64,000 nucleotides of DNA from Halegenticoccus soli. GTDB lineage: Archaea > Halobacteriota > Halobacteria > Halobacteriales > Haloferacaceae. Every line of letters begins with the position of its first letter. The first letter of the stretch is position 1. A model generated the notes under the pieces. That model saw only the letters and a list, made by a program, of their open reading frames with translations, did not search any database and was not told the DNA's origin. Positions 8,534 to 19,532 of this stretch are shown here, in pieces. The translations under genes and the position numbers were made by a program. The stretch spans positions 372,001 through 436,000 of the forward strand of contig NZ_PEND01000001.1 in assembly GCF_002844195.1 (NCBI RefSeq), read 5' to 3'.

Positions 8534-8558
8534 ACCGCCGGGCGTGGGAGATTGGCCC

Positions 8559-10064
8559 ATGACCGACGCCGACGGTTCCGCCTCGCCCTTCGATCTCGAC
8601 GGCAGCGACGCCGCCTCGCCCTCCGATCTCGACGGCAGCGACGCCGCCTCGCCCTCCGATCTCGACGGCGACAGTGCCGGCTCTCTCTCTCCGTTCGACT
8701 CCGACTTCGAGTTCGAGCACGTCCCCGAGACGGACCAGTCGTTCGAGAACGCGCTCGAGAAGGCCAGGGCCGGCGAGCGACTCACGGTGGCGGACGGCGT
8801 CGAGCTCCTGACGACCGGCACCGACGTCGAGGGCGTCGACCCCGTCCGGAAGGAGCAGGTGCTTGAGGCCGCCGACCGCCGCCGCGCCGAGGTCGTCGGC
8901 GAGGAGGTGACGTTCGTGGCCAACCTCAACAACAACGTCACCACCGCCTGCAACACCGGCTGTCTGTTCTGCAACTTCAAGGACACCGCCCACCAGTTCG
9001 AGGCGGGCTACGAGGGCGAACACGGCGGGTTCACCAAGACGCCCGAGGAGTCCCGCGCCGTCGTCGAGGACGCGCTGGAGATGGGGATCTACGAGGTGTG
9101 TTCGGTCTCCGGGCTCCACCCCGCCTTCGCGCTGAACGACGAGCACCACGAGATCCTGCGCGCGAAATCGGACGAGCGGGACCTGAACTACAGGCCGCCC
9201 GAGGCGTACGAGACGGATCCGGGGACCTACGTCGAGCAGATGCGGGCGATGTCGGTCGGCGGCGTCCACCTCCACTCGATGACGCCCGAGGAGGCGTACC
9301 ACGCCCGCCGGGGGACCGACTGGACCTACGAGGAGGTGTACCGCGAGCTGAAGGCGGCCGGCCTCGACAGCGCACCCGGGACAGCCGCCGAGATCCTCGT
9401 CGACGAGGTCCGGGACGTGATCTGCCCCGGCAAGATTGACACGCGGGGCTGGCTCGACGCGATGGAGGGAGCGATGGCCGCCGGCCTCGACGTGACGGCG
9501 ACGATCATGTACGGCCACGTGGAGAACAAGATGCACCGCGTCATGCACCTGAAGGCGATCCGCGACCTCCAGGACCGAACCGGCGGCATCACGGAGTTCG
9601 TCCCGCTGTCGTTCGTCCACGAGAACACGCCGCTGTACGAGCGCGGCGTCGTCTCCGGCGGCGCGACCGACGACGAGGACGAGCTTCTGGTCGCCGTCTC
9701 GCGGCTCTTTCTCGACAACGTCGACAACGTCCAGTCCTCGTGGGTAAAGTACGGGAACGCGAAGGCGCTGAAGCTGCTCAACTGCGGCGCGAACGACTTC
9801 ATGGGGACGATCCTCTCGGAGGAGATCACGAAGCGCGCGGGCGGACGGTACGGCGAGTTCCGGTCGTTCGACGACTACGTGGACATGATCTCCGCCATCG
9901 GCCGCCCGCCGGCCGAACGCTCGACGGACTACCGGACGAAGCGGCGGATCGACCTCGACGGCGGCCCGTACGGCCCGACGCTCGGCCCGCGGGCGGACGG
10001 GACGCCGATGCTCGACTCGCGTCGCGGGGCCGACGGGTCGGAGACGGCGCACGCCGACGACTGA
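8559..10064 (+). CDS. cofH: FO synthase subunit 2 (CofH), radical SAM
   Basis: 501 aa. CofH condenses tyrosine-derived 4-hydroxybenzyl fragment with 5-amino-6-ribitylaminouracil, the first half-reaction towards the deazaflavin FO of coenzyme F420. The radical-SAM cluster motif is CNTGCLFC (Cys131, 135, 138), followed by EVCSVSGLHPAF, SVGGVHLHSMTPEEAYH and ATIMYGHVENKMHR, all typical of CofH. The family core begins near residue 53 (HVPETDQSFENAL); the 50 residues before it are a Ser/Asp-rich extension containing three 11-residue repeats encoded by tandem 33-base units. Its partner cofG lies 4.4 kb away on the other strand. Confidence 0.95.
   Translation: MTDADGSASPFDLDGSDAASPSDLDGSDAASPSDLDGDSAGSLSPFDSDFEFEHVPETDQSFENALEKARAGERLTVADGVELLTTGTDVEGVDPVRKEQVLEAADRRRAEVVGEEVTFVANLNNNVTTACNTGCLFCNFKDTAHQFEAGYEGEHGGFTKTPEESRAVVEDALEMGIYEVCSVSGLHPAFALNDEHHEILRAKSDERDLNYRPPEAYETDPGTYVEQMRAMSVGGVHLHSMTPEEAYHARRGTDWTYEEVYRELKAAGLDSAPGTAAEILVDEVRDVICPGKIDTRGWLDAMEGAMAAGLDVTATIMYGHVENKMHRVMHLKAIRDLQDRTGGITEFVPLSFVHENTPLYERGVVSGGATDDEDELLVAVSRLFLDNVDNVQSSWVKYGNAKALKLLNCGANDFMGTILSEEITKRAGGRYGEFRSFDDYVDMISAIGRPPAERSTDYRTKRRIDLDGGPYGPTLGPRADGTPMLDSRRGADGSETAHADD
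8583..8681 (+). repeat. Three tandem 33-base repeats in the 5' end of cofH
   Basis: Three in-frame copies of a 33-base unit encode SP(F/S)DLDGSDAA, the third diverging to SPSDLDGDSAG. Copies one and two are nearly identical at the nucleotide level. They lie outside the catalytic domain. Confidence 0.85.
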
Positions 10065-10180
10065 CGCGAGGCGGCCTCGTCTCGCTAGCCGACGTTCCGC
10101 CGTCGAGAGTGCGCACGATTCATGTGTCCGGAGGACGGAGGGTCGGGGACGGTATCTCTATTCGGAGGTGAACGAACGTG

Positions 10181-10774
10181 ATGGCACCGACGCACGTCGC
10201 GGTAGGGTTGCTGCTGGCCGCCCCGGTCGCGGCGCACAAACCGGAGTTGGCGCCGCTCGCGGCCGCGGTGGCGGGGAGCGTCTTCCCCGACCTCGACCTG
10301 CTGGTCGGCCGGCACCGCAAGTCGCTGCACTTCCCCGTCTACTCGTGGCTTCTCGCGCTTCCGGCCGTCGCCGCCGCGGCCGCCCTTCGGACGCCGTGGT
10401 CCGTCTCGCTGGGGCTCTTTCTCCTCGCCGCCGCGCTCCATCCCGCTGTCGACCTCCTCGGCGGCAGTTCGGAGCCCGCCCCGTGGGAGTACGCGACCGA
10501 TCGCGGGGTGTACCTCCACCTCGGGGGGCGGTGGCTCGCGCCGAAGCGGTGGGTGCGGTACGACGGCGCTCCCGAGGATCTCGCGCTCGCCGTCTGCTGT
10601 ACCGTCCCCGCGCTCGTCGTCTTCGACGGCCCGGCGCGCGCCGTCGCGCTCGGGAGCCTCGCGGTCGGCGTCGGCTACGCCGCGGCCAGAAAGCGGATCC
10701 CGCAGCTGTCGGGGCGGTTTCCCGGAGCGGTTCTGTGGATCGCCGGGCTGTTTCTGAGTCGACTCCGGCGGTAG
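10181..10774 (+). CDS. Membrane-bound YdjM-type metal-dependent hydrolase (DUF457 family)
   Basis: 197 aa, at least four hydrophobic segments. It begins MAPTHVAVGLLLAAPVAA, where the early His is the usual first metal ligand, then VAGSVFPDLDLLVGRHRKSLHFPVY (PDLD and RxxxHxP motifs) and LHPAVDLLGG. These are the signatures of the LexA-regulated, membrane-bound predicted hydrolase family (YdjM/DUF457); the substrate is unknown for the family. A good GGAGGTGA ribosome-binding site ends 12 bases before this ATG and 9 before the in-frame GTG, so the GTG one codon earlier is also possible. It lies between cofH and the reductase pair, convergent with the latter. Confidence 0.75.
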   Translation: MAPTHVAVGLLLAAPVAAHKPELAPLAAAVAGSVFPDLDLLVGRHRKSLHFPVYSWLLALPAVAAAAALRTPWSVSLGLFLLAAALHPAVDLLGGSSEPAPWEYATDRGVYLHLGGRWLAPKRWVRYDGAPEDLALAVCCTVPALVVFDGPARAVALGSLAVGVGYAAARKRIPQLSGRFPGAVLWIAGLFLSRLRR

Positions 10775-10830: not shown

Positions 10831-12324
10831 TCAGTGGTCGCTCTCGTGCGGGTTCAGCGGCGTTCCGTACTGTTCGGCGAACTCGGCGTACTCGATGAAC
10901 CGCGGGGCGTCGGGGTCGAACGGCCGCTTCAGCGACTTGAACGCCTTCTTTTTGTCCCAGCTCTGGAGGCCGCCGATGGCGCTCCGGTCTTCGAGGTCGT
11001 GGTAGTCGAGGTCGGGGGCGGTGAGCTCCCAGGCCTTCAGCCCCTTTTCGGTCCGGACGATGACGCTCGAGTACTCGTCGCTGCTGCCGACGGACCCGAC
11101 GGTGATGTCGGAGCAGTAGCCGGTGAAGTCGGCGCACTCGTCGCAGCCCTTCAGGGCGGCCCCGTGGAAGTTCCGGACGTCCTCGGCGAGCAGTTTTTCG
11201 CCATCGCGGCCGTACACCCGCATCTCTCCGTCGAGCACGTCGAGCTTGCCGATCTCCTCCGGGAGGATGCCGCGCTTTTCCGCCAGCTGCTCGCCGATGA
11301 GCCGGTAGTAGTTGAAGTTCTTCGTGCACATCAGCGCGATCGTGTACTCGATGGCGCGGACGCCGGCCTCCTGGGAGCCGTACTCCCAGTCGAAGTCCCG
11401 CAGGGCGCGGATCCCCTCGATCTCGCAGGGCGTCCCGACGACCGCGAGGCTGAGCTCCTCGACCGGTACGTCGGGGAGCTTGTGTGCCCACCGGTCCAGA
11501 TCGAGGTCTCCCAGCGCCATCGTCTGGTTGTAGAAGCTCCCGGCGCTCTCGACGAGCTCCTCCGGCGTCGTCGCCAGGAAGCTCTCGGCCTTCCAGGGCT
11601 CCTCGTCCGACTCGGTCGCGACGAGCGCGCCGTCGATCTCGCCGGCGTCGAGCAGGTGACAGAGGACGCTCGTGACGACCCCGCCGTCCTGGGCGTTCTC
11701 GCGCCACTCCTCGGTGACCTTCGCCGAGAACTCCGTGATGGGGTCGCCCGCCCCGGTCACGTTGTCCTCGCCGCCGGTGATCTTCCACTGCCGCTCGTAC
11801 CGGAGCCCGCCGCGGGGGCAGAAGTCCCAGCAGAGCGAGCAGCCGGTGCACATCTTCACGAGCTCCGGGAGGCCGTCGTCGCCGACGGCGATCGAGTCCG
11901 ACGGGCAGGCGGCGACGCACGTCCCGCACTGGATGCACCGGTCCGCGTCGATGACGGCGGCGTCGAGCTCCATGAACCAGGTCTTGTCGTCCGGCGTCTC
12001 GATGTCGTTCATCTCCCGGCGGATGCCGTACCCCGGCGTGTCGAGGTCGACGCCCTTGGGGGGGCCGACGCGCTCGGTAGGATCTCCCTCCTCCACGTCC
12101 TGGCTCGCCCCCTCGGCCGGCGGGGTGAACGTGATCGGCCCGAGGCTCCCGTCGCGGACGTTGACCGCGCCGCCGCTGCCGTCGGCTGCGACCGGTCGGT
12201 CGCCGCCTCCGCCTTCCGCGCCGCAGGTGCAGCCAGCCCCGCAGCGACCTTCGTCCTCGTCCACGTCCCCGTCACGGTCGCCGAACGCCGGAACGCCGGG
12301 GAGCGGCCCGTCGCGGTCAGTCAT
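10831..12324 (-). CDS. FrhB-type coenzyme F420 dehydrogenase subunit with two [4Fe-4S] motifs
   Basis: 497 aa. Order of parts: a Cys-bearing acidic N-terminus (Cys28, 32, 34), two ferredoxin motifs C-x2-C-x2-C-x3-CP (Cys130/133/136/140 and 159/162/165/169), an FrhB N-terminal domain with VVGTPCEIEGIRAL, and an FrhB C-terminal domain with GCDECADFTGYCSDITVGSVG. FrhB proteins bind FAD and exchange hydride with F420. The same order (two Fe-S motifs, then FrhB) forms the N-terminal half of the methanogen F420-dependent sulfite reductase Fsr. The start overlaps the stop of the upstream siroheme reductase gene by eight bases, so the two products are probably made together. I infer an electron-input subunit for that reductase. 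Confidence 0.88.
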   Translation of the reverse strand: MTDRDGPLPGVPAFGDRDGDVDEDEGRCGAGCTCGAEGGGGDRPVAADGSGGAVNVRDGSLGPITFTPPAEGASQDVEEGDPTERVGPPKGVDLDTPGYGIRREMNDIETPDDKTWFMELDAAVIDADRCIQCGTCVAACPSDSIAVGDDGLPELVKMCTGCSLCWDFCPRGGLRYERQWKITGGEDNVTGAGDPITEFSAKVTEEWRENAQDGGVVTSVLCHLLDAGEIDGALVATESDEEPWKAESFLATTPEELVESAGSFYNQTMALGDLDLDRWAHKLPDVPVEELSLAVVGTPCEIEGIRALRDFDWEYGSQEAGVRAIEYTIALMCTKNFNYYRLIGEQLAEKRGILPEEIGKLDVLDGEMRVYGRDGEKLLAEDVRNFHGAALKGCDECADFTGYCSDITVGSVGSSDEYSSVIVRTEKGLKAWELTAPDLDYHDLEDRSAIGGLQSWDKKKAFKSLKRPFDPDAPRFIEYAEFAEQYGTPLNPHESDH

Positions 12325-14023
12325 CGGCGGCGACACCCCCCGAGACGGGAGCGTCCGCCCGCCGCATGATCTCGCGCAGGCGGTCGTTGTCGACGCGCCG
12401 GCACCACTCGTAGAACCGCTCGCCCTCCTCCCGTTCGTCGGCGTAGGCCGCGAAGAGCCGTTCGAGCGCCGGAATGACGGCCTCGGCCGGCACCGCGGCT
12501 TCCACCCAGTCGAGGAACCGGTTGTCCGAGCCGAGGCTGCCGCCGAGCCCGAAGTCCATCCCCTCGACGATGGCGTCGCCCTCCGCGTTCGTGCTCCGGG
12601 CGTCCTCGGGCAGCTTCACCGTCTCGCCTCTGAACCCGATGTCAGCGATCTGCGGCTGGGCGCAGGAGGCCGAACAGCCGCTCATGTGCATCCGCACGAC
12701 CTCGATCTCGTCGGGCACGTCGATGCGGCGGTCGAGTTCCTCGGCCCAGCGCTTGACGCGCCGCTTCGTCTCGATGATTCCGTAGTTGCAGAACTCGCTC
12801 CCCGTACAGCCGACGGCGCCGCGCGTGAACGGCCCCGGATCGGGGCTGTACTCGCGGGCGAACGGCTCGTCGAGGAGGGCGTCGACGTTCTCCGCGGGGA
12901 CGTGCGTCACGAGGAAGTTCTGATCCGTGGCGAGGCGGATCGTGGAGTCGTCGGTGCCGTACTCCCTCGCGGCGCGGGCGGCCGCGGCGAACTCGTCGCC
13001 GCCCATGCGACCGGCGACGACGTTGAAGCCGACGTACCGGAGCCCCTCCTCGCGCTGGTCGTGCACGCCGACGTGGTCGCCGGTGTACCCCGTGGTCAGG
13101 TCCTCGCCGGCGCTCGGGAGATCGACCGAGCAGCGGTCCCGGACCGCACGCTCGAACGCCTCGGGTCCCATCTGCTGGACGAGGTAACGCATCCGGCAGA
13201 CGCCGCGGTTGTGGCGGTCACCCAGCTCCTTGAACGTCTGGGCGACGGCGCGGCAGAACTCCACGGCGTCCTCCGGCGGGACGAAGGCGTCGAGCGTCGA
13301 GGCCATCCGCGGCCCGTCGGAGAGGCCGCCGCCGACCCGCGCGTGAAAGCCGTAGTAGGGCTCGCCGTCCACGACCTTCCGCGCCGGGACCAGCCCGACG
13401 TCGTTGATCTGCGACTGGGCGCAGTCGCGCCGGCACCCCGTGATCGTCAGCTTGAACTTCCGGGGGAGGTTCGCGTACTCGCGGTTGCCGGTGAAGTAGT
13501 CCGAGACGGCGTCGACGACGGGCTGGGCGTCGAACGCCTCGTGGTCGTCGAGGCCGGCGGCGGGGCAGCCGAGGACGTTCCGCGCGCCGTCGCCGCAGCC
13601 CTGGATCGTCGTGAGGCCGACCTCGTCGTAGCGGTCCCAGATCTCGGGCACGTCCTCGATCTCGATCCAGTGCATCTGGACGTCCTGCCGCGTGGTGATG
13701 TCGAGGAAGGCGTCGCCCCACGTCGGGTTCTGTTCCTCGCCGCCGAACTCCTCGGGGGCCGTCGCGTACTCGTCGGCCACCTCGCCGATCACCTCGGCCT
13801 GATCCGGGGTGAGCCGGCCGCCGGGCACCTTCGTCCGCAGCATGAAGTACCCGCGGTGCGTCCCGTGGGCGTACATCCCGGCCCACTTCAGCCGCTCCCA
13901 CTCGCCGTCGCCCGCACGGGCCTCGATCTCGTCGAAGGTCAGCCCCTCGGCGGCGTACTCGTACACGTCCTCGACGACGTCCAGCGGGTGTTTCTCCCGC
14001 TTCCACCGCTCGACCTTGTTCAT
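12317..14023 (-). CDS. nirA: Siroheme/[4Fe-4S] nitrite- or sulfite-reductase family protein
   Basis: 568 aa, with the duplicated ferrodoxin-like fold of assimilatory nitrite/sulfite reductases. The cluster/siroheme cysteines are Cys406 and Cys412 in GCTGSEFC and Cys450 and Cys454 in SGCSASC. The sequence following Cys412, NYGIIETKRR, resembles ferredoxin-nitrite reductases (CTGSxFC...ETK) more than plant-type sulfite reductases. First-half signatures TTIQGCGDGARNV and TGCRRDCAQ are the degenerate matching sites. The ATG is preceded at proper distance by GGAGGTGG. It is the first gene of a two-gene operon with the FrhB-type protein. Six-electron reduction of nitrite to ammonium is favoured; sulfite is the alternative. 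Confidence 0.9.
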   Translation of the reverse strand: MNKVERWKREKHPLDVVEDVYEYAAEGLTFDEIEARAGDGEWERLKWAGMYAHGTHRGYFMLRTKVPGGRLTPDQAEVIGEVADEYATAPEEFGGEEQNPTWGDAFLDITTRQDVQMHWIEIEDVPEIWDRYDEVGLTTIQGCGDGARNVLGCPAAGLDDHEAFDAQPVVDAVSDYFTGNREYANLPRKFKLTITGCRRDCAQSQINDVGLVPARKVVDGEPYYGFHARVGGGLSDGPRMASTLDAFVPPEDAVEFCRAVAQTFKELGDRHNRGVCRMRYLVQQMGPEAFERAVRDRCSVDLPSAGEDLTTGYTGDHVGVHDQREEGLRYVGFNVVAGRMGGDEFAAAARAAREYGTDDSTIRLATDQNFLVTHVPAENVDALLDEPFAREYSPDPGPFTRGAVGCTGSEFCNYGIIETKRRVKRWAEELDRRIDVPDEIEVVRMHMSGCSASCAQPQIADIGFRGETVKLPEDARSTNAEGDAIVEGMDFGLGGSLGSDNRFLDWVEAAVPAEAVIPALERLFAAYADEREEGERFYEWCRRVDNDRLREIMRRADAPVSGGVAADD

Positions 14024-14074
14024 CGGGGCCACCTCCGCCGGCGACGGGCTCGGGGCGACGGTGTCGCTCCGCTG

Positions 14075-14244
14075 TTCGCGTGAACTACCCCGTGGTGAAC
14101 GTGCATTCGGGAGAACTCGTTTCTGCCGTTATTCACGCGAACCCCCCCGTGGAGAGCGTGAGTTCGAGAGAGCCCGCTCTCTCGTCGTTCACGTGAACCA
14201 CCCGCGGCGGCGAGCGCGAAGTCGGACGCGCGCGACGCTGCCGT
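14075..14244. repeat. Three 56-57-base imperfect repeats upstream of nirA, each with a near-palindrome
   Basis: The 466-base spacer between nirA and cofG has no gene. It carries three imperfect repeats starting at 14075, 14132 and 14188. Each begins with TTC(A/G)CG(T/C)GAA: TTCGCGTGAA, TTCACGCGAA and the perfect palindrome TTCACGTGAA, followed by C-rich and TCGGGAGA-like blocks. A fourth partial site (GTTATTCACGG) lies near 14309. On the strand of nirA, the middle site abuts a TATA-like GAATAAC. This looks like a multi-operator control region, possibly for the nirA operon. Confidence 0.55.
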
Positions 14245-14489: not shown

Positions 14490-15749
14490 TTATTCCGAGT
14501 CACCGGGCCGACGGCGGCCGAGGACGGCGCGGTACCGGTCGCCCGCCTCGTCGTCCGCCGCGAGCGCCCGCAGGATCCGCTCCGACAGCCACGTTCGATC
14601 CGCATCGCCGACGGCGTCGGACGAGCGACCGCCGTCAGCGCCGGCGGAACCGTCCGCGTCGACGGGACTGGTTGCATCGGTGGACCCGTCCGCGTCGGAT
14701 CGGCGGTCGCCCTCGGCGACGTCGGATCGCCCCTCCCCGCCGAAGCCGGCGGGGAGATAGCGGTCGTACACGGGCAGCCGCTCGTACAGCGGGACGCCGG
14801 CCTCGTCGGCGACGTCCCGCAGTTCCCGCAGCGCGGGCCACTCGTATTCCGGGTTGATGTAGTCGTCCGTCACGGGCGAGACGCCGCCGAGGTCGTCGAC
14901 GCCGCAGTCGAGAAGCTCCCGTGCCGGCGAGAGGTTCGGCGGCACCTGCACGGAGACCTCCCCCGGGAGGCACGCCCGGGCCATCGCCACGACCCGTCGC
15001 ATCGCCTCGACGGGAGGTCGCTCGAAGTCGGAGCGCTCGTTCGGGACCACGTTCTGGACGATCACCTCCTGGACGTGGCCGTGCCGCTCGTGGAGCTCGC
15101 GGATCGCGAGCAGGCTCTCGGCGCGGTCGCGCCAGGTCTCGCCGATGCCCACCAGGATCCCCGTGGTGAAGGGGACGCCCGCGCGGCCGGCCGCCCGGAT
15201 CGTGTTGAGCCGCTGACCGGGCGTCTTCCGACGGATACCCGAGTGGGCCTGCACGTCCGCGGTCGTCTCCAGCATCACGCCCATGCTGGCGTTCACCTCC
15301 GAGAGGCGCTCGAACTCGGGTTCCGTCAGGTCGCCGGGGTTGCTGTGCGGCAGCAGCCCCTCGTCGAGCGCCAGCTCGCACATCTCGTAGAGGTAGTCGA
15401 CGATGGAGTCGTGGCCCCAGGCGTCGAGTCGCTCGTGAATCTCCTCGTACCGGGCGTCGGGCTTGTCGCCGAAGGTGAAGAGCGCCTCCGTGCAGCCGGC
15501 GTCCGCGCCCGTCCGCAGCGTCTCGCGCGCCCCCTCCGGCGACATGAGCGTCGCCTGGCCCGGGACGTCGTAGTAGGTGCAGTACGTGCAGGTGTACCGG
15601 CAGGCGGTGGTCAGCGGGAGGAAGACGTTCCGCGAGAAGGTGAGCGCCGGCGCGGGGTCGACGTCGTCGGGCGTCACCGACAGCAGGCGCTCGACCTCGC
15701 GCTCGTCGATCCGGACGTCGATGTCGTACTCGTCCGCCCCCGGGAACAT
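14490..15749 (-). CDS. cofG: FO synthase subunit 1 (CofG), radical SAM
   Basis: 419 aa. CofG completes the deazaflavin ring of FO from the CofH product. The radical-SAM motif is CRYTCTYC (Cys50, 54, 57), preceded by SRNVFLPLTTA, with later family blocks TFGDKPDARYEEIH, LLPHSNPGDL, GILVGIGET and VSPVTDDYINPEYEWP. Near the C-terminus, between YLPAGFG and TWLSERIL, is an insert of about 50 residues rich in Asp, Ser and Gly not expected in the family. I start at MFPGADEYDID; the nine upstream in-frame codons look unlike the family. It is divergent from the ferritin-like gene and on the same strand as cofC. Confidence 0.95.
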   Translation of the reverse strand: MFPGADEYDIDVRIDEREVERLLSVTPDDVDPAPALTFSRNVFLPLTTACRYTCTYCTYYDVPGQATLMSPEGARETLRTGADAGCTEALFTFGDKPDARYEEIHERLDAWGHDSIVDYLYEMCELALDEGLLPHSNPGDLTEPEFERLSEVNASMGVMLETTADVQAHSGIRRKTPGQRLNTIRAAGRAGVPFTTGILVGIGETWRDRAESLLAIRELHERHGHVQEVIVQNVVPNERSDFERPPVEAMRRVVAMARACLPGEVSVQVPPNLSPARELLDCGVDDLGGVSPVTDDYINPEYEWPALRELRDVADEAGVPLYERLPVYDRYLPAGFGGEGRSDVAEGDRRSDADGSTDATSPVDADGSAGADGGRSSDAVGDADRTWLSERILRALAADDEAGDRYRAVLGRRRPGDSE

Positions 15750-15973
15750 GGGCACAGTTCGCCCCCGGAGCGACAAAAACGTAGTACTTCCGTCGGAACG
15801 TTTCGCGCGGGTCGAAAACTCGTTACCGCTGACATCGGTCGAAACGTCCGGATTCCGTACATTTTAACCGACGAAAGGGGGCGAAATTTGAACGAATTTG
15901 GGTGAGAATCCGGAAAACCTACTTCCGACGTTTGCACGTCGTTCCGATCGTGCCCACGCGGCACGGTGAAAGC

Positions 15974-16723
15974 ATGACCGACGACACCCCCCTCGACGAC
16001 GCGCGGCCCGACAGCATCGAAAACGTACCCCGGACGGCGCGGAGCCACCTGACCTCCCGGCGCGGCTTTCTCGCCGGCGCGGCGGCGATCGGCGGCGGAT
16101 CGCTCGTCGCGTCGACCGGCGGATTCGCGGGCGTCGCGACCGCTGACGGCCACGGCGGGGACGGCTCCGACGACGGCGGGAGCGGCTCCGACGACGGGAC
16201 GTCCGACGTCGACATCCTGAACTACGCGCTGACGCTCGAACACCTCGAAGCGGCCTTCTACGAGATGGGGCTGTCCGACTTCTCGGACGACGAGTTCGCG
16301 TCCGCCGAGCTCGTCTGCGGTCGGTTCAGCGAGGAGACGCGCCGGGAGCTCCCCGAGTACCTGCGGGTCGCCGGCGAGCACGAGGCGGTCCACGTCGAGC
16401 AGCTGACCGCGGTGATCGAGGAGCTCGGCGGCGAGCCCGTCGGGGCGGCCGAGTACGACTTCGGCTACGAGACCCCCAGCGAGTTCCTCGAAATCGCGTC
16501 GGCGCTCGAAAACACCGGCGTCGCCGCGTACGCGGGGGCCGCGCCGATGATCCAGAACGACGAGATCCTCTCCGCGGCGCTGTCGATCCACAGCGTCGAG
16601 GCGCGACACGCCGGGACGGCGAACTTCTTCATCGGCGAGCTGCCGTTCCCCGACGCGTTCGACGAGCCGAAGGGGATGGACGAGGTCCTGGAGATCGCCG
16701 GACAGTTCATCGTCTCGGAGTAG
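15974..16723 (+). CDS. Tat-exported ferritin-like domain protein
   Basis: 249 aa. A twin-arginine signal (SRRGFLAGAAAIGGGSLVA, about residues 27-45) is followed by a Gly/Ser/Asp linker of about 25 residues and a four-helix ferritin-like domain. Glu/His pairs consistent with a di-metal site occur in LEHLEAAFYE, GEHEAVHVEQL and IHSVEARHA. This matches the exported ferritin-like family seen in many bacteria and haloarchaea; the role (metal storage, oxidant protection) is not established. The ATG gives the standard Tat n-region; the earlier in-frame codons are basic and non-conserved. Followed by a T-tract. Confidence 0.8.
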   Translation: MTDDTPLDDARPDSIENVPRTARSHLTSRRGFLAGAAAIGGGSLVASTGGFAGVATADGHGGDGSDDGGSGSDDGTSDVDILNYALTLEHLEAAFYEMGLSDFSDDEFASAELVCGRFSEETRRELPEYLRVAGEHEAVHVEQLTAVIEELGGEPVGAAEYDFGYETPSEFLEIASALENTGVAAYAGAAPMIQNDEILSAALSIHSVEARHAGTANFFIGELPFPDAFDEPKGMDEVLEIAGQFIVSE

Positions 16724-16863: not shown

Positions 16864-17487
16864 CTACGGTACCCGCCGGACCCCGACCCGGCCCTCGCGC
16901 ACGTCGAGTTCGAACCCGGCGTCTTCGAGCCAGTCGCGCGCCGCGCCGTCGCCGTGGACGAGAAGCTCCGCGAGGTCCTCCGGCTCGTCGACGTCCGTCG
17001 AGAGGCGCATCGAGTCAACCTCCCGGACGGTCGCGCCGATCTCGCGGGCGATCCGGCGGTGGTCGAGGTACGACGCGCCGTGGTAGTCGACGCGGAACGC
17101 GGGGTGCCGCACGACGAGCGCGTTCGTCCCGCCGCCGCGGCCGGACGCGATGACCACGTCGCCCGGCGTCGAACAGAGGCGCTCGACGCTTTCGGGGGTT
17201 GCGAGCGCGAGGTCGCTCATCAGGACGGCCGCGGGGCCCTCGGCGGCCGCGAGCGCCGCGTTCACCGCCTCCGAGAGCGGCCGCTCGTCGACCGCGACGG
17301 GCGCGACGGCCGCGTCGACCGCCACCGGCGCGGTCGCGAGCACCTCCGGATCGTGGCCCGCGCCGACCGCCGCGGCGAGCACGTCCCGCAGCATGGCCTC
17401 CGCGAACGCGGTCCGCTCGTCGGCCGAGAGGACGCCCGCGAGGCGCGTCTTCGGCCGCTCGGCCGCGAACGGGACGACGATTCGCAT
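16864..17487 (-). CDS. cofC: 2-phospho-L-lactate guanylyltransferase (CofC)
   Basis: 207 aa nucleotidyltransferase of the MobA-like fold. It opens MRIVVPFAAERPKTRLAGVLS, where the RPKTRLA segment is the CofC version of the KxRL phosphate-binding loop, continues with AAVLMSDLALATPESVERL (the DxxL metal/nucleotide segment) and VIASGRGGGTNALVVR, and ends with YDxDEP-like STDVDEPEDLAELL. CofC uses GTP to activate 2-phospholactate or phosphoenolpyruvate for attachment to FO in F420 synthesis. It stands 1.1 kb from cofG on the same strand, which supports the F420 assignment. Starts at the only good ATG. Confidence 0.93.
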   Translation of the reverse strand: MRIVVPFAAERPKTRLAGVLSADERTAFAEAMLRDVLAAAVGAGHDPEVLATAPVAVDAAVAPVAVDERPLSEAVNAALAAAEGPAAVLMSDLALATPESVERLCSTPGDVVIASGRGGGTNALVVRHPAFRVDYHGASYLDHRRIAREIGATVREVDSMRLSTDVDEPEDLAELLVHGDGAARDWLEDAGFELDVREGRVGVRRVP

Positions 17488-17535: not shown

Positions 17536-18330
17536 TCACCCGAGTTTGTCGTACCCGTCCCGCCGGGAGCGCCACCAGAACGCGCCGCCGACGAGGGCCG
17601 CGAGCCCGAAGAGCCCGCCCGCGCCGTACACGAGCAGCCGCCTCGTCTCGCTGGACTGTTTCGCCTCGTTCGCCGCCGACTCGGCCTCGCTTGCGAGGTT
17701 CGACGCGTGGTCGAAGTTGTTCCCGCTCTCGTAGGCGTCGATCGCGTTTCTGAGCGCGCTCTCGGCCTCGCTCGTGTCGGCGTCGGCCGCTTCGATCGCG
17801 GCCCGCGCGGCGTCGATCGCCGCGCGCGCGCTCCGGCTGTCGTCGGTGTAGTGGTGCGCGCGCCACGCGCCGATCTCGTTGCTCGACCCGCCGTCGCGCG
17901 TCTGGGTCAGCCGCATCAACAGGAACGACTGTTCCGGCTCGTAGCTGTAGTTCGCCACCTCGGGGACGGTGCCGGTCACCTTCACGCGGACCTCGCTCAC
18001 GTCCGTGTCCGCGCTGATCGACGCGCCGGTGAAGTTCGCGCCGTCGATCGACTGCTGACCGGTCTTCGAGCCGGTCTGGTCGTAGTACGTCAGCGTCCAG
18101 GTCACGTCGGTCAGGTTCGTCTCGCCCGCGAGCTCCCACGCTTCGAGATCGGGGTTCCGGTACAGCTCGGACAGCGTCACCGTCGCGCTGACCTTCTCGC
18201 CGACCTTCCCCTCCTCGGGGACGCTCCGCTCGTCGACCGACACCGCGGCCGCGGGGGTCGCGAGCGCAGACACGAGCAGGAGGCCCGCGAGGAGCAGGCT
18301 AGAACAGCGACTCCAGTTCGTCTTCGTCAT
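17536..18330 (-). CDS. Secreted, C-terminally membrane-anchored protein next to cetZ
   Basis: 264 aa, not recognised. An N-terminal signal peptide (LLLAGLLLVSALATPAAA) is followed by a beta-rich outer domain containing WTLTYYDQTGSKTG, then an Ala/Glu/Asp-rich probable helical stretch (about residues 165-225) and one transmembrane segment (LLVYGAGGLFGLAALVGGAFWW) with a short basic cytoplasmic tail. This would put most of the protein outside the cell. The ATG lies 32 bases inside the 3' end of cetZ, so both are probably on one transcript; this start provides the n-region of the signal peptide. A role linked to cell shape or surface is speculative. Confidence 0.7.
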   Translation of the reverse strand: MTKTNWSRCSSLLLAGLLLVSALATPAAAVSVDERSVPEEGKVGEKVSATVTLSELYRNPDLEAWELAGETNLTDVTWTLTYYDQTGSKTGQQSIDGANFTGASISADTDVSEVRVKVTGTVPEVANYSYEPEQSFLLMRLTQTRDGGSSNEIGAWRAHHYTDDSRSARAAIDAARAAIEAADADTSEAESALRNAIDAYESGNNFDHASNLASEAESAANEAKQSSETRRLLVYGAGGLFGLAALVGGAFWWRSRRDGYDKLG

Positions 18331-19480
18331 CGTTGATGAGGTTGTCGAGGTTCGTCTCGCTCTCCCGCCTGATCTCGTCGATGTTGTCCTGCGCCTCGAT
18401 GGCGACCTGCTGGAGCTCCTTGATCCGCGGGACGTTCGTGACGCCGGACAGCAGGATGACGCTCGCGACGAAGCCGCTGCCGGAGACCGGGTAGTCGCCG
18501 CCGCGGACCTCCATGCTGCCCGTCTGCTCTTCGAGCCACTTGCGGCCGCGCTCGATGCCCTTCCGGTTCAGATGCTGCGGCGGGCCGGCCATGACCAGCA
18601 GGGCTCGCTCCGTCCCGTCGATCTCGCAGGGGAGCGTCAGCCGCCCCAGCGCAGCCTTCCGGACGAGGCTCGTGATCCGATTCGTCGTGTGGGCGGTGTC
18701 GAGGCCGTCGTCGTCGTCCGAGCCGCCGGTCAGACGCGAGAGCAGTCCCCCGGACTTCTTCTCTTCGACCCGCTCGGAGGCGTACCCGACGGTCGAGACG
18801 CCGCCGCCGCTGAGCGTGTTGATGATCTCGCTGGAGTCGACGACGCTTTCTGCGACCTCCTGGCCGTCCGTGACCTTGCCCGCGCCGAAGAGGATGCCGA
18901 ACCGCTTTACGATCTCCTCGTTGATCTCGTCGTACCCACCCTGAACGGATTCGCCGGTCTTCCGCCAGGCGTCGTTGTCGAACACGAGGAGGTTGTCCAC
19001 CTCCCGGACGAACGTCTGGAACGACCGCGCGGCGTTGAGCGTGTAGATGCCGCCCTCGTCGCCGCCCGGGAGGATGCCCAGCCCGTACACCGGCTCGGTG
19101 TAGATGCGCTTGAGGTGCTTTGCGAGCACTGGCGCGCCGCCGCTGCCGGAGCCGCCGCCGAGTCCCGCGACGACGAGGAACGCGTCGATCTCGTGGACCG
19201 GTATCGCGTCGATCGCGCCCTGCACCTCGTCTATGTCCTCCTCCGCGACCTCCGCGCCGAGTTCGTTGTCCGCGCCGACGCCGTGGCCCTTGACGCGCGA
19301 CTGCCCGATGAGCACGCGCTGGTCGGTCGGGATGTTTTCGAGGCCCATCAGGTCGGCCTTCGCGGTGTTGACCGCGACCGCCGCCCTGACGATGTCGCTC
19401 CCCGTCCGCCGGTCGTACGCGACGAACGTATCGACTATCTTATCCCCCGCCTGACCGAATCCGATCATTGCCAGTTTCAT
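18299..19480 (-). CDS. cetZ: CetZ tubulin/FtsZ-superfamily cytoskeletal GTPase
   Basis: 393 aa. The nucleotide-binding tubulin signature is GGGSGSGGAP (residues 108-117); the N-terminus MKLAMIGFGQAGDKIVD and the second conserved block LPGGDEGGIYTLNAARS are characteristic of haloarchaeal CetZ proteins, which control cell shape and motility instead of Z-ring division. The C-terminus ends with an acidic tail (DDEDELESLF), as in CetZ1. The ATG follows a GTGAGGGG ribosome-binding site, and a TATA-like CTTATATTT lies 44-52 bases upstream. Downstream it overlaps a secreted anchored protein. Which CetZ paralogue it is cannot be decided without comparison. Confidence 0.93.
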   Translation of the reverse strand: MKLAMIGFGQAGDKIVDTFVAYDRRTGSDIVRAAVAVNTAKADLMGLENIPTDQRVLIGQSRVKGHGVGADNELGAEVAEEDIDEVQGAIDAIPVHEIDAFLVVAGLGGGSGSGGAPVLAKHLKRIYTEPVYGLGILPGGDEGGIYTLNAARSFQTFVREVDNLLVFDNDAWRKTGESVQGGYDEINEEIVKRFGILFGAGKVTDGQEVAESVVDSSEIINTLSGGGVSTVGYASERVEEKKSGGLLSRLTGGSDDDDGLDTAHTTNRITSLVRKAALGRLTLPCEIDGTERALLVMAGPPQHLNRKGIERGRKWLEEQTGSMEVRGGDYPVSGSGFVASVILLSGVTNVPRIKELQQVAIEAQDNIDEIRRESETNLDNLINDDEDELESLF

Positions 19481-19523
19481 TGTTCCATTCCCCTCACCAT
19501 TGCGTGAAACCCATGGCGAAAAC

Positions 19524-19532
19524 AAATATAAG
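19524..19532 (-). promoter_or_regulatory. TATA-like box of cetZ
   Basis: On the cetZ strand the sequence reads CTTATATTT. The predicted transcript start near 19503 would give a leader of about 22 bases that contains GTGAGGGG. Further upstream the spacer holds another AT-rich block (GATATATAAACC near 19610-19620), which may be an additional promoter or upstream element. Confidence 0.5.

Follow-up and report, generated by a model that had tools for sequence, protein, structure and literature searches.

A putative split, FrhB-coupled siroheme reductase predicted to use F420H2, encoded within the F420-biosynthesis cluster of Halegenticoccus soli

The group I Fsr enzymes of Methanocaldococcus jannaschii and its relatives (EC 1.8.98.3) combine a FrhB-plus-ferredoxin input module with a siroheme reductase in one chain. 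The reductase consists of one Dsr-like half into which a ferredoxin domain is inserted, and motif B is short of one Cys (PMC9295563). The group II enzyme (FsrII, or FNiR) of the anaerobic methanotrophic (ANME) archaea ANME-2c also pairs F420H2 input with siroheme output in a single chain with a degenerate motif B and a Dsr-type reductase, and shows that nitrite can be the substrate. A third type, consisting of two adjacent haloarchaeal subunits, was named aFsr and proposed by Susanti and Mukhopadhyay in 2012 to be a putative F420H2-dependent assimilatory sulfite reductase (PMC3448663); aFsr-beta is mentioned again in PMC9295563, and our literature search on aFsr met the name in these two papers and found no experiment. 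Here we analyse a nirA–frhB gene pair in a 64,000-nucleotide stretch of the Halegenticoccus soli genome (contig NZ_PEND01000001.1, positions 372,001 to 436,000; hereafter the window). An earlier reading of this DNA from its letters alone (the sequence-only reading) had proposed a split F420H2-dependent reductase with a preference for nitrite and knew of no description of such coupling in haloarchaea. This claim to novelty does not hold, as aFsr had been put forward with an identical pair and mechanism. Because aFsr was proposed from genomes in 2012, we regard the present pair as a further member of an already proposed type, which it resembles in its two adjacent subunits, proposed donor and substrate, and organism group, with no difference in kind. 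What is added here to the 2012 text is the cof-locus setting, a fixed overlap of 8 or 11 bases, a rhodanese-fused clade with its own FrhB, the Sir-replacement pattern, related pairs in Chloroflexota and a Cys-rich FrhB tail.

The pair probably encodes the two subunits of an assimilatory-type sulfite reductase (aFsr), a heteromer that depends on F420H2. Anatomy, conserved pairing, the surrounding cof genes and the nearest relatives give good support to the prediction of a split, FrhB-coupled siroheme reductase using F420H2. This part of the sequence-only reading stands as a prediction, whereas its preference for nitrite is not supported. We infer complex formation, F420H2 as the donor and sulfite as the main substrate. 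The pair and its parts, all on the reverse strand, are as follows.

12317–14023, reverse: nirA (aFsr-alpha, protein P0002), siroheme-[4Fe-4S] reductase subunit, 568 amino acids (Pfam and AlphaFold)
13565–13597 and 13421–13435, reverse: second Cys quartet, in the N-terminal half of NirA (C143 and C153; C197 and C201)
13451–13459, reverse: K189-x-K191, sulfite-reductase-type substrate lysines of NirA (alignment)
12788–12808, reverse: C406-X5-C412, two of the four cysteine ligands of the catalytic [4Fe-4S]-siroheme (invariant)
12662–12676, reverse: C450-X3-C454, the remaining half of the catalytic ligands (invariant)
12317–12324, reverse: 8-base overlap of the nirA stop with the frhB ATG
10831–12324, reverse: frhB (aFsr-beta, protein P0001), F420H2-oxidase-type subunit with a FAD loop and three [4Fe-4S] motifs, 497 amino acids (Pfam and nearest PDB structures)
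12223–12243, reverse: C28-x3-C32-x-C34 triplet (CGAGCTC in the protein) in the disordered N-terminal tail of FrhB
11815–11958, reverse: ferredoxin domain of FrhB with 2x[4Fe-4S], through which electrons presumably leave for NirA (Pfam Fer4_21 and others; eight Cys conserved)
11512–11730, reverse: FrhB_FdhB_N domain with the QDGG FAD loop (Pfam, motif)
11023–11448, reverse: FrhB_FdhB_C domain with cluster ligands C300, C333, C394 and C397 (Pfam; invariant in 28 sequences)

The anatomy given by the sequence-only reading was confirmed throughout: the genes share eight bases (12317–12324), NirA carries the four siroheme/[4Fe-4S] cysteines (C406, C412, C450 and C454), and FrhB carries two [4Fe-4S] motifs with complete FrhB N and C domains. 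The frhB gene starts at the ATG at 12324, an upstream GTG at 12336 being an alternative start. The two genes lie in different reading frames and encode two separate chains, not the single polypeptide of Fsr. Both the domain matches (NIR_SIR E=2e-54, FrhB_C E=2e-30) and the recurrence of the overlap are far beyond chance.

NirA contains two NIR_SIR and three NIR_SIR_ferr matches above the curated Pfam cut-offs. Pfam, key residues, the AlphaFold model (predicted local distance difference test, pLDDT, 87; predicted template-modelling score 0.89) and PDB fold matches all identify it as a two-half siroheme subunit of the aFsr type; with its two NIR_SIR stretches and no Fer4 domain it is not a Dsr-like single half with an inserted ferredoxin. 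Its best PDB fold matches are plant NiR and Mycobacterium tuberculosis NirA (TM 0.80–0.82), whereas Fsr is matched only partially (TM 0.36). The M. tuberculosis protein (1zj8, TM 0.82) shares the NirA-family fold but is a stand-alone, ferredoxin-type enzyme with no FrhB partner described; nirA by name, it is a sulfite reductase according to the title of the study that characterised it. The catalytic cysteines (CX5C...CX3C) are invariant across 68 aligned homologues.

FrhB comprises a 4Fe-4S dicluster domain (residues 123–170), FrhB_N (199–271) and FrhB_C (293–434), all above the Pfam cut-offs, so that two ferredoxin [4Fe-4S] motifs lie N-terminal to the FrhB domains as in aFsr-beta. Both CX2CX2CX3C motifs are complete. 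Compared with group I Fsr, the pair has two chains, an aSir-type double half without inserted ferredoxin, and a complete motif B. Family membership is further indicated by a QDGG sequence at residue 212, which forms the FAD pyrophosphate loop in FrhB (PMC3930138), and by the cluster motif PC300-X32-C333-X60-C394-X2-C397, the non-canonical cluster motif of Fsr being PCX40CX54CX2C (PMC10229431). Sequence and fold searches of the PDB both place FrhB closest to F420-linked enzymes, namely the CODH component, Fsr, Frh and Fmd; HCAR, which is ferredoxin-linked, ranked lower and appeared in the fold search only, at about 18% identity. Since the FrhB AlphaFold model (mean pLDDT 60) is of low quality in the tail and the ferredoxin domain and weak outside the FrhB core, it was used for fold class alone.

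Gene-order conservation, one of the checks that the sequence-only reading had proposed, bears out the pairing. The frhB gene of this clade (clade A) occurs in 118 of 391 class-level Halobacteria genomes at 67–82% identity, and orthologous NirA matches occur in the same 118, with adjacent coordinates wherever these were compared. In 79 of 80 fetched loci, one of them a Chloroflexi contig, nirA lies directly upstream of frhB, the exception being L101; this is the adjacency expected of aFsr. At about 75 of 77 related loci the two genes overlap by either 8 or 11 bases, which suggests translational coupling and a fixed stoichiometry. Protein distances of NirA and FrhB within the clade are correlated (rho 0.50, 0 of 2000 permutations), a correlation to which shared descent contributes and for which it could suffice alone.

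Related pairs are also found in two Chloroflexota genomes (L119 and L174), and the NirA tree unites them with the haloarchaeal clade (97% support in the Shimodaira–Hasegawa-like approximate likelihood ratio test). One of these genomes encodes CofD, and in the other an F420-type luciferase-like monooxygenase (LLM) gene lies 5 kb from the pair. The surroundings of the L174 pair include hemB/hemC/hemD-like genes and an F420-type LLM gene. The same phylum-level search returned a third, divergent NirA–FrhB pair outside Halobacteria (L175). FrhB relatives without nirA were seen beside a FAD_binding_2 flavoprotein (L127, 7804–10877) and without any obvious partner (L133, 8056–9339; L101, 9941–11356), and the FrhB module may serve other acceptors too.

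The genome holds three NirA-type genes: the paired nirA, L008 and L009. L008 (C1:116734–118527) adjoins a haloarchaeal NasA (NasA_Halo, 1199 bits against a cut-off of 1000) and a major facilitator superfamily transporter and is thus assigned as NasD, while L009 is a stand-alone Lys-x-Lys paralogue labelled Sir, a function that is presumed. Haloarchaeal NasD, of the ferredoxin type, shares the NirA fold and cluster ligands with the paired protein but differs in its nasA-transporter cluster, its Lys-x-Asn site and its lack of a FrhB partner; the pair lies outside any such cluster. The second substrate position is Lys in 45/45 paired NirA (27 from clade A, 15 from clade B and 3 from bacteria; K191 here) and in 12/12 Sir, as opposed to Asn in 11/11 NasD and 0/45 paired NirA. 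Plant NiR also has Asn at that position, and an N226K mutant of tobacco NiR is PDB entry 3vlx. The CTGSEFC...ETK site, from which the sequence-only reading had derived its preference for nitrite over sulfite, is common to Sir, NasD, plant NiR and the whole NirA family and was rejected as an indicator; with the Lys-x-Lys site and the distribution of Sir pointing the other way, that preference falls.

For the distribution of the paralogues, presence was called with thresholds chosen by eye at gaps in the E-values. Of the 118 genomes with the pair, 60 have Sir, versus 209 of the 273 others (Fisher p 9e-7), and in family f4 it is 22 of 67 versus 21 of 22 (p 1e-7), neither test being corrected for phylogeny; in genus g28 the counts are 1/18 and 3/3. 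NasD is found in 87 of the 118, of which 39 have no Sir; altogether 58 pair genomes are without Sir, and 19 are without both. Since Sir is rarer in pair genomes while NasD is kept, the pair seems to stand in for Sir and not for NasD. PAPS_reduct, tried as a marker of sulfate assimilation, was uninformative, being present in 14/14 controls.

A second clade (clade B; L120–L126, L128–L132, L134, L135 and L139) encodes a NirA with an N-terminal double rhodanese, followed immediately by its own FrhB (38–49% identical). Rhodanese–NirA fusions in Halobacteria were noted earlier (PMC11237513); for the FrhB partner we found no mention in the literature. Fusion of a siroheme reductase to a rhodanese that would free sulfite from thiosulfate speaks for sulfite chemistry in this family, and makes clade B a candidate thiosulfate-to-sulfide system. 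For Natronomonas, conversion of thiosulfate via sulfite to sulfide by a sulfurtransferase and 'sulfite reductase NP4004A' has been proposed (PMC3402447); NP_4006A, a FrhB homologue with a tag near that of NP4004A, is listed as an open annotation problem and is 27% identical to Fsr (PMC8305020). Sulfurtransferase-like genes lie 7–12 kb from the pair in 19 clade A loci, mostly of Natrialbaceae.

The pair in the window lies inside an F420-biosynthesis cluster, with cofG and cofC upstream and cofH downstream, and this position together with the conserved pairing is why the assignment to F420H2 is well supported. The neighbouring features are as follows.

8544–10064, forward: cofH, FO synthase subunit 2 (NF005609 CofH, above cut-off)
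10178–10774, forward: YdjM-like membrane protein between cofH and frhB (PF04307, just above cut-off)
14490–15776, reverse: cofG, FO synthase subunit 1, directly upstream of nirA (NCBIfam CofG, above cut-off)
16864–17487, reverse: cofC, guanylyltransferase of F420 synthesis (TIGR03552, above cut-off)

This placement between cofG and cofH is found in the window and in about six genera. In seven fetched loci cofG has the position that it has here; the gene order of the cluster is repeated in Halegenticoccus, Halogranum, Salinigranum, three Halarchaeum records and one metagenome-assembled genome, Halospeciosus keeps cofH, and the YdjM-like gene is kept in most cof-linked loci. In Haloferax volcanii, cofH, cofG and cofC are HVO_2198, 2201 and 2202 (PMC8305020), and a control search of that genome gave no FrhB match; its cof genes are thus close together without the pair. 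The Halegenticoccus genome also encodes CofD and an NpdG above cut-off, and a genome search returned no second FrhB. CofD was present in 38/38 sampled pair genomes; as it is near-universal in haloarchaea, it was discarded as a discriminator for an F420 link and is a matter of consistency only. Judging by neighbour names taken from sequence reading, most pair loci have prefoldin, signal recognition particle and eIF6 genes nearby, while ThiM-like, ThiE-like and sulfurtransferase genes are neighbours in some. A link to nitrate assimilation was rejected, as no nas gene is among the recurrent neighbours of the pair.

Within the window, an imperfect 57-bp tandem repeat of 2.3 copies (14074–14203) lies upstream of nirA towards cofG, and the palindrome GTTCACGTGAAC recurs within it. 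Between cofG and cofC there is a forward-strand gene for a Ferritin_2-like protein with a Tat-like signal (15902–16723). A tubulin-like gene, CetZ-type by its sequence (18299–19525, reverse strand), adjoins the cof cluster, and this neighbourhood recurs in nine related loci.

Several observations weigh against an F420H2-dependent sulfite reductase. In overall similarity, both by profile and by fold, NirA is nearer to nitrite reductases; the four basic residues of the site are also present in nitrite-reducing enzymes, and group I Fsr reduces both anions (PMC10202398); and FsrII of ANME-2c uses F420H2 to reduce nitrite and does not act on sulfite (PMC9295563). The test of Sir distribution ignores phylogeny. 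Outside about six genera, most haloarchaea have no cof gene within 10 kb of the pair, and the near-universality of CofD means that its co-occurrence discriminates little.

The pair might instead be an F420H2-dependent nitrite reductase, a split analogue of FsrII, as the sequence-only reading had it. That NirA is nearest to ferredoxin-nitrite reductases, that F420H2-dependent nitrite reduction is proven for FsrII (PMC9295563) and that Natrinema J7-2, which has two nirA-type genes but lacks any nas gene, can grow on nitrite (PMC3402447) speak for this explanation, which we nevertheless consider unlikely, given the Lys-x-Lys site of paired NirA, the separate nasD within a nas cluster of the same genome, the lack of nas genes among the recurrent neighbours, the 39 pair genomes that have NasD yet no Sir, and the fusion of clade B to rhodanese. 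It is similarly improbable that the pair is a broad-range F420H2-driven scavenger of sulfite, nitrite and hydroxylamine serving mainly in detoxification: siroheme reductases with this basic site do reduce several oxyanions (group I Fsr, PMC10202398), and retention of Sir in 60/118 pair genomes means that the pair is not always the sole enzyme, but its presence in 58 genomes without Sir, 19 of them also without NasD, fits a main assimilatory role, and no stress-type neighbours were found. Finally, the notion that NirA is fed by ordinary ferredoxin while FrhB is a ferredoxin-linked or unrelated oxidoreductase, like plant HCAR, can appeal to the ferredoxin dependence of HCAR within the FrhB family, to FrhB relatives without nirA (L101) or beside a flavoprotein (L127) and to Sir and NasD, which evidently function without FrhB, but has little chance of being right in view of the fixed overlap and near-constant pairing, the greater closeness of FrhB to F420 enzymes than to HCAR, and the cof-cluster setting.

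In the F420H2-dependent sulfite reductase that we favour, NpdG would reduce F420 with NADPH, and the FAD of the FrhB subunit would accept a hydride from F420H2. From there electrons would travel through the FrhB cluster and then both clusters of the ferredoxin domain before reaching the [4Fe-4S]-siroheme in NirA, where sulfite, supplied by a sulfurtransferase acting on thiosulfate or else from sulfate, would be reduced to sulfide by six electrons. The sulfide might be used for cysteine and Fe-S synthesis, or the reaction might serve to detoxify sulfite.

Two further groups of cysteines are conserved. The N-terminal quartet of NirA (C143/C153/C197/C201) is kept in clade A, bacterial pairs and Sir, whereas its first Cys is Gly in 11/11 NasD and plant NiR lacks the quartet; it could be vestigial or a candidate second Fe-S site. 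In 69/77 haloarchaeal loci a motif of the C-x3/4-C-x-C type, often CxCxxxCxC, occurs in a disordered tail of about 90–180 residues that precedes the ferredoxin domain of FrhB, with variants such as CSPNTCTC and CGCGDSCGC; the Chloroflexota proteins have neither the tail nor its Cys triplet. The triplet is a possible extra metal or sulfur-carrier site.

The default label of the NirA subunit, ferredoxin-nitrite reductase, is likely a misannotation that is corrected here, as most of the evidence points to F420H2 and sulfite. Haloarchaea make F420, whose role there is described in reviews as undetermined or enigmatic (PMC8305020, PMC8498797). The conserved FrhB–NirA pair, which in several genera sits amid F420-biosynthesis genes and in others replaces a stand-alone paralogue, offers a concrete, testable answer. 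A bolder combination, tentative and rather doubtful as a whole, is that powering sulfite reduction is the main job of F420 in many haloarchaea, with the pair as the one sulfite reductase that about half of its carriers possess, clade B as a one-complex thiosulfate-to-sulfide machine, and the Cys triplet of the FrhB tail as an additional site for metal binding or sulfur carriage that Fsr does not show. The pair could reveal the purpose of F420 in these salt-loving archaea.

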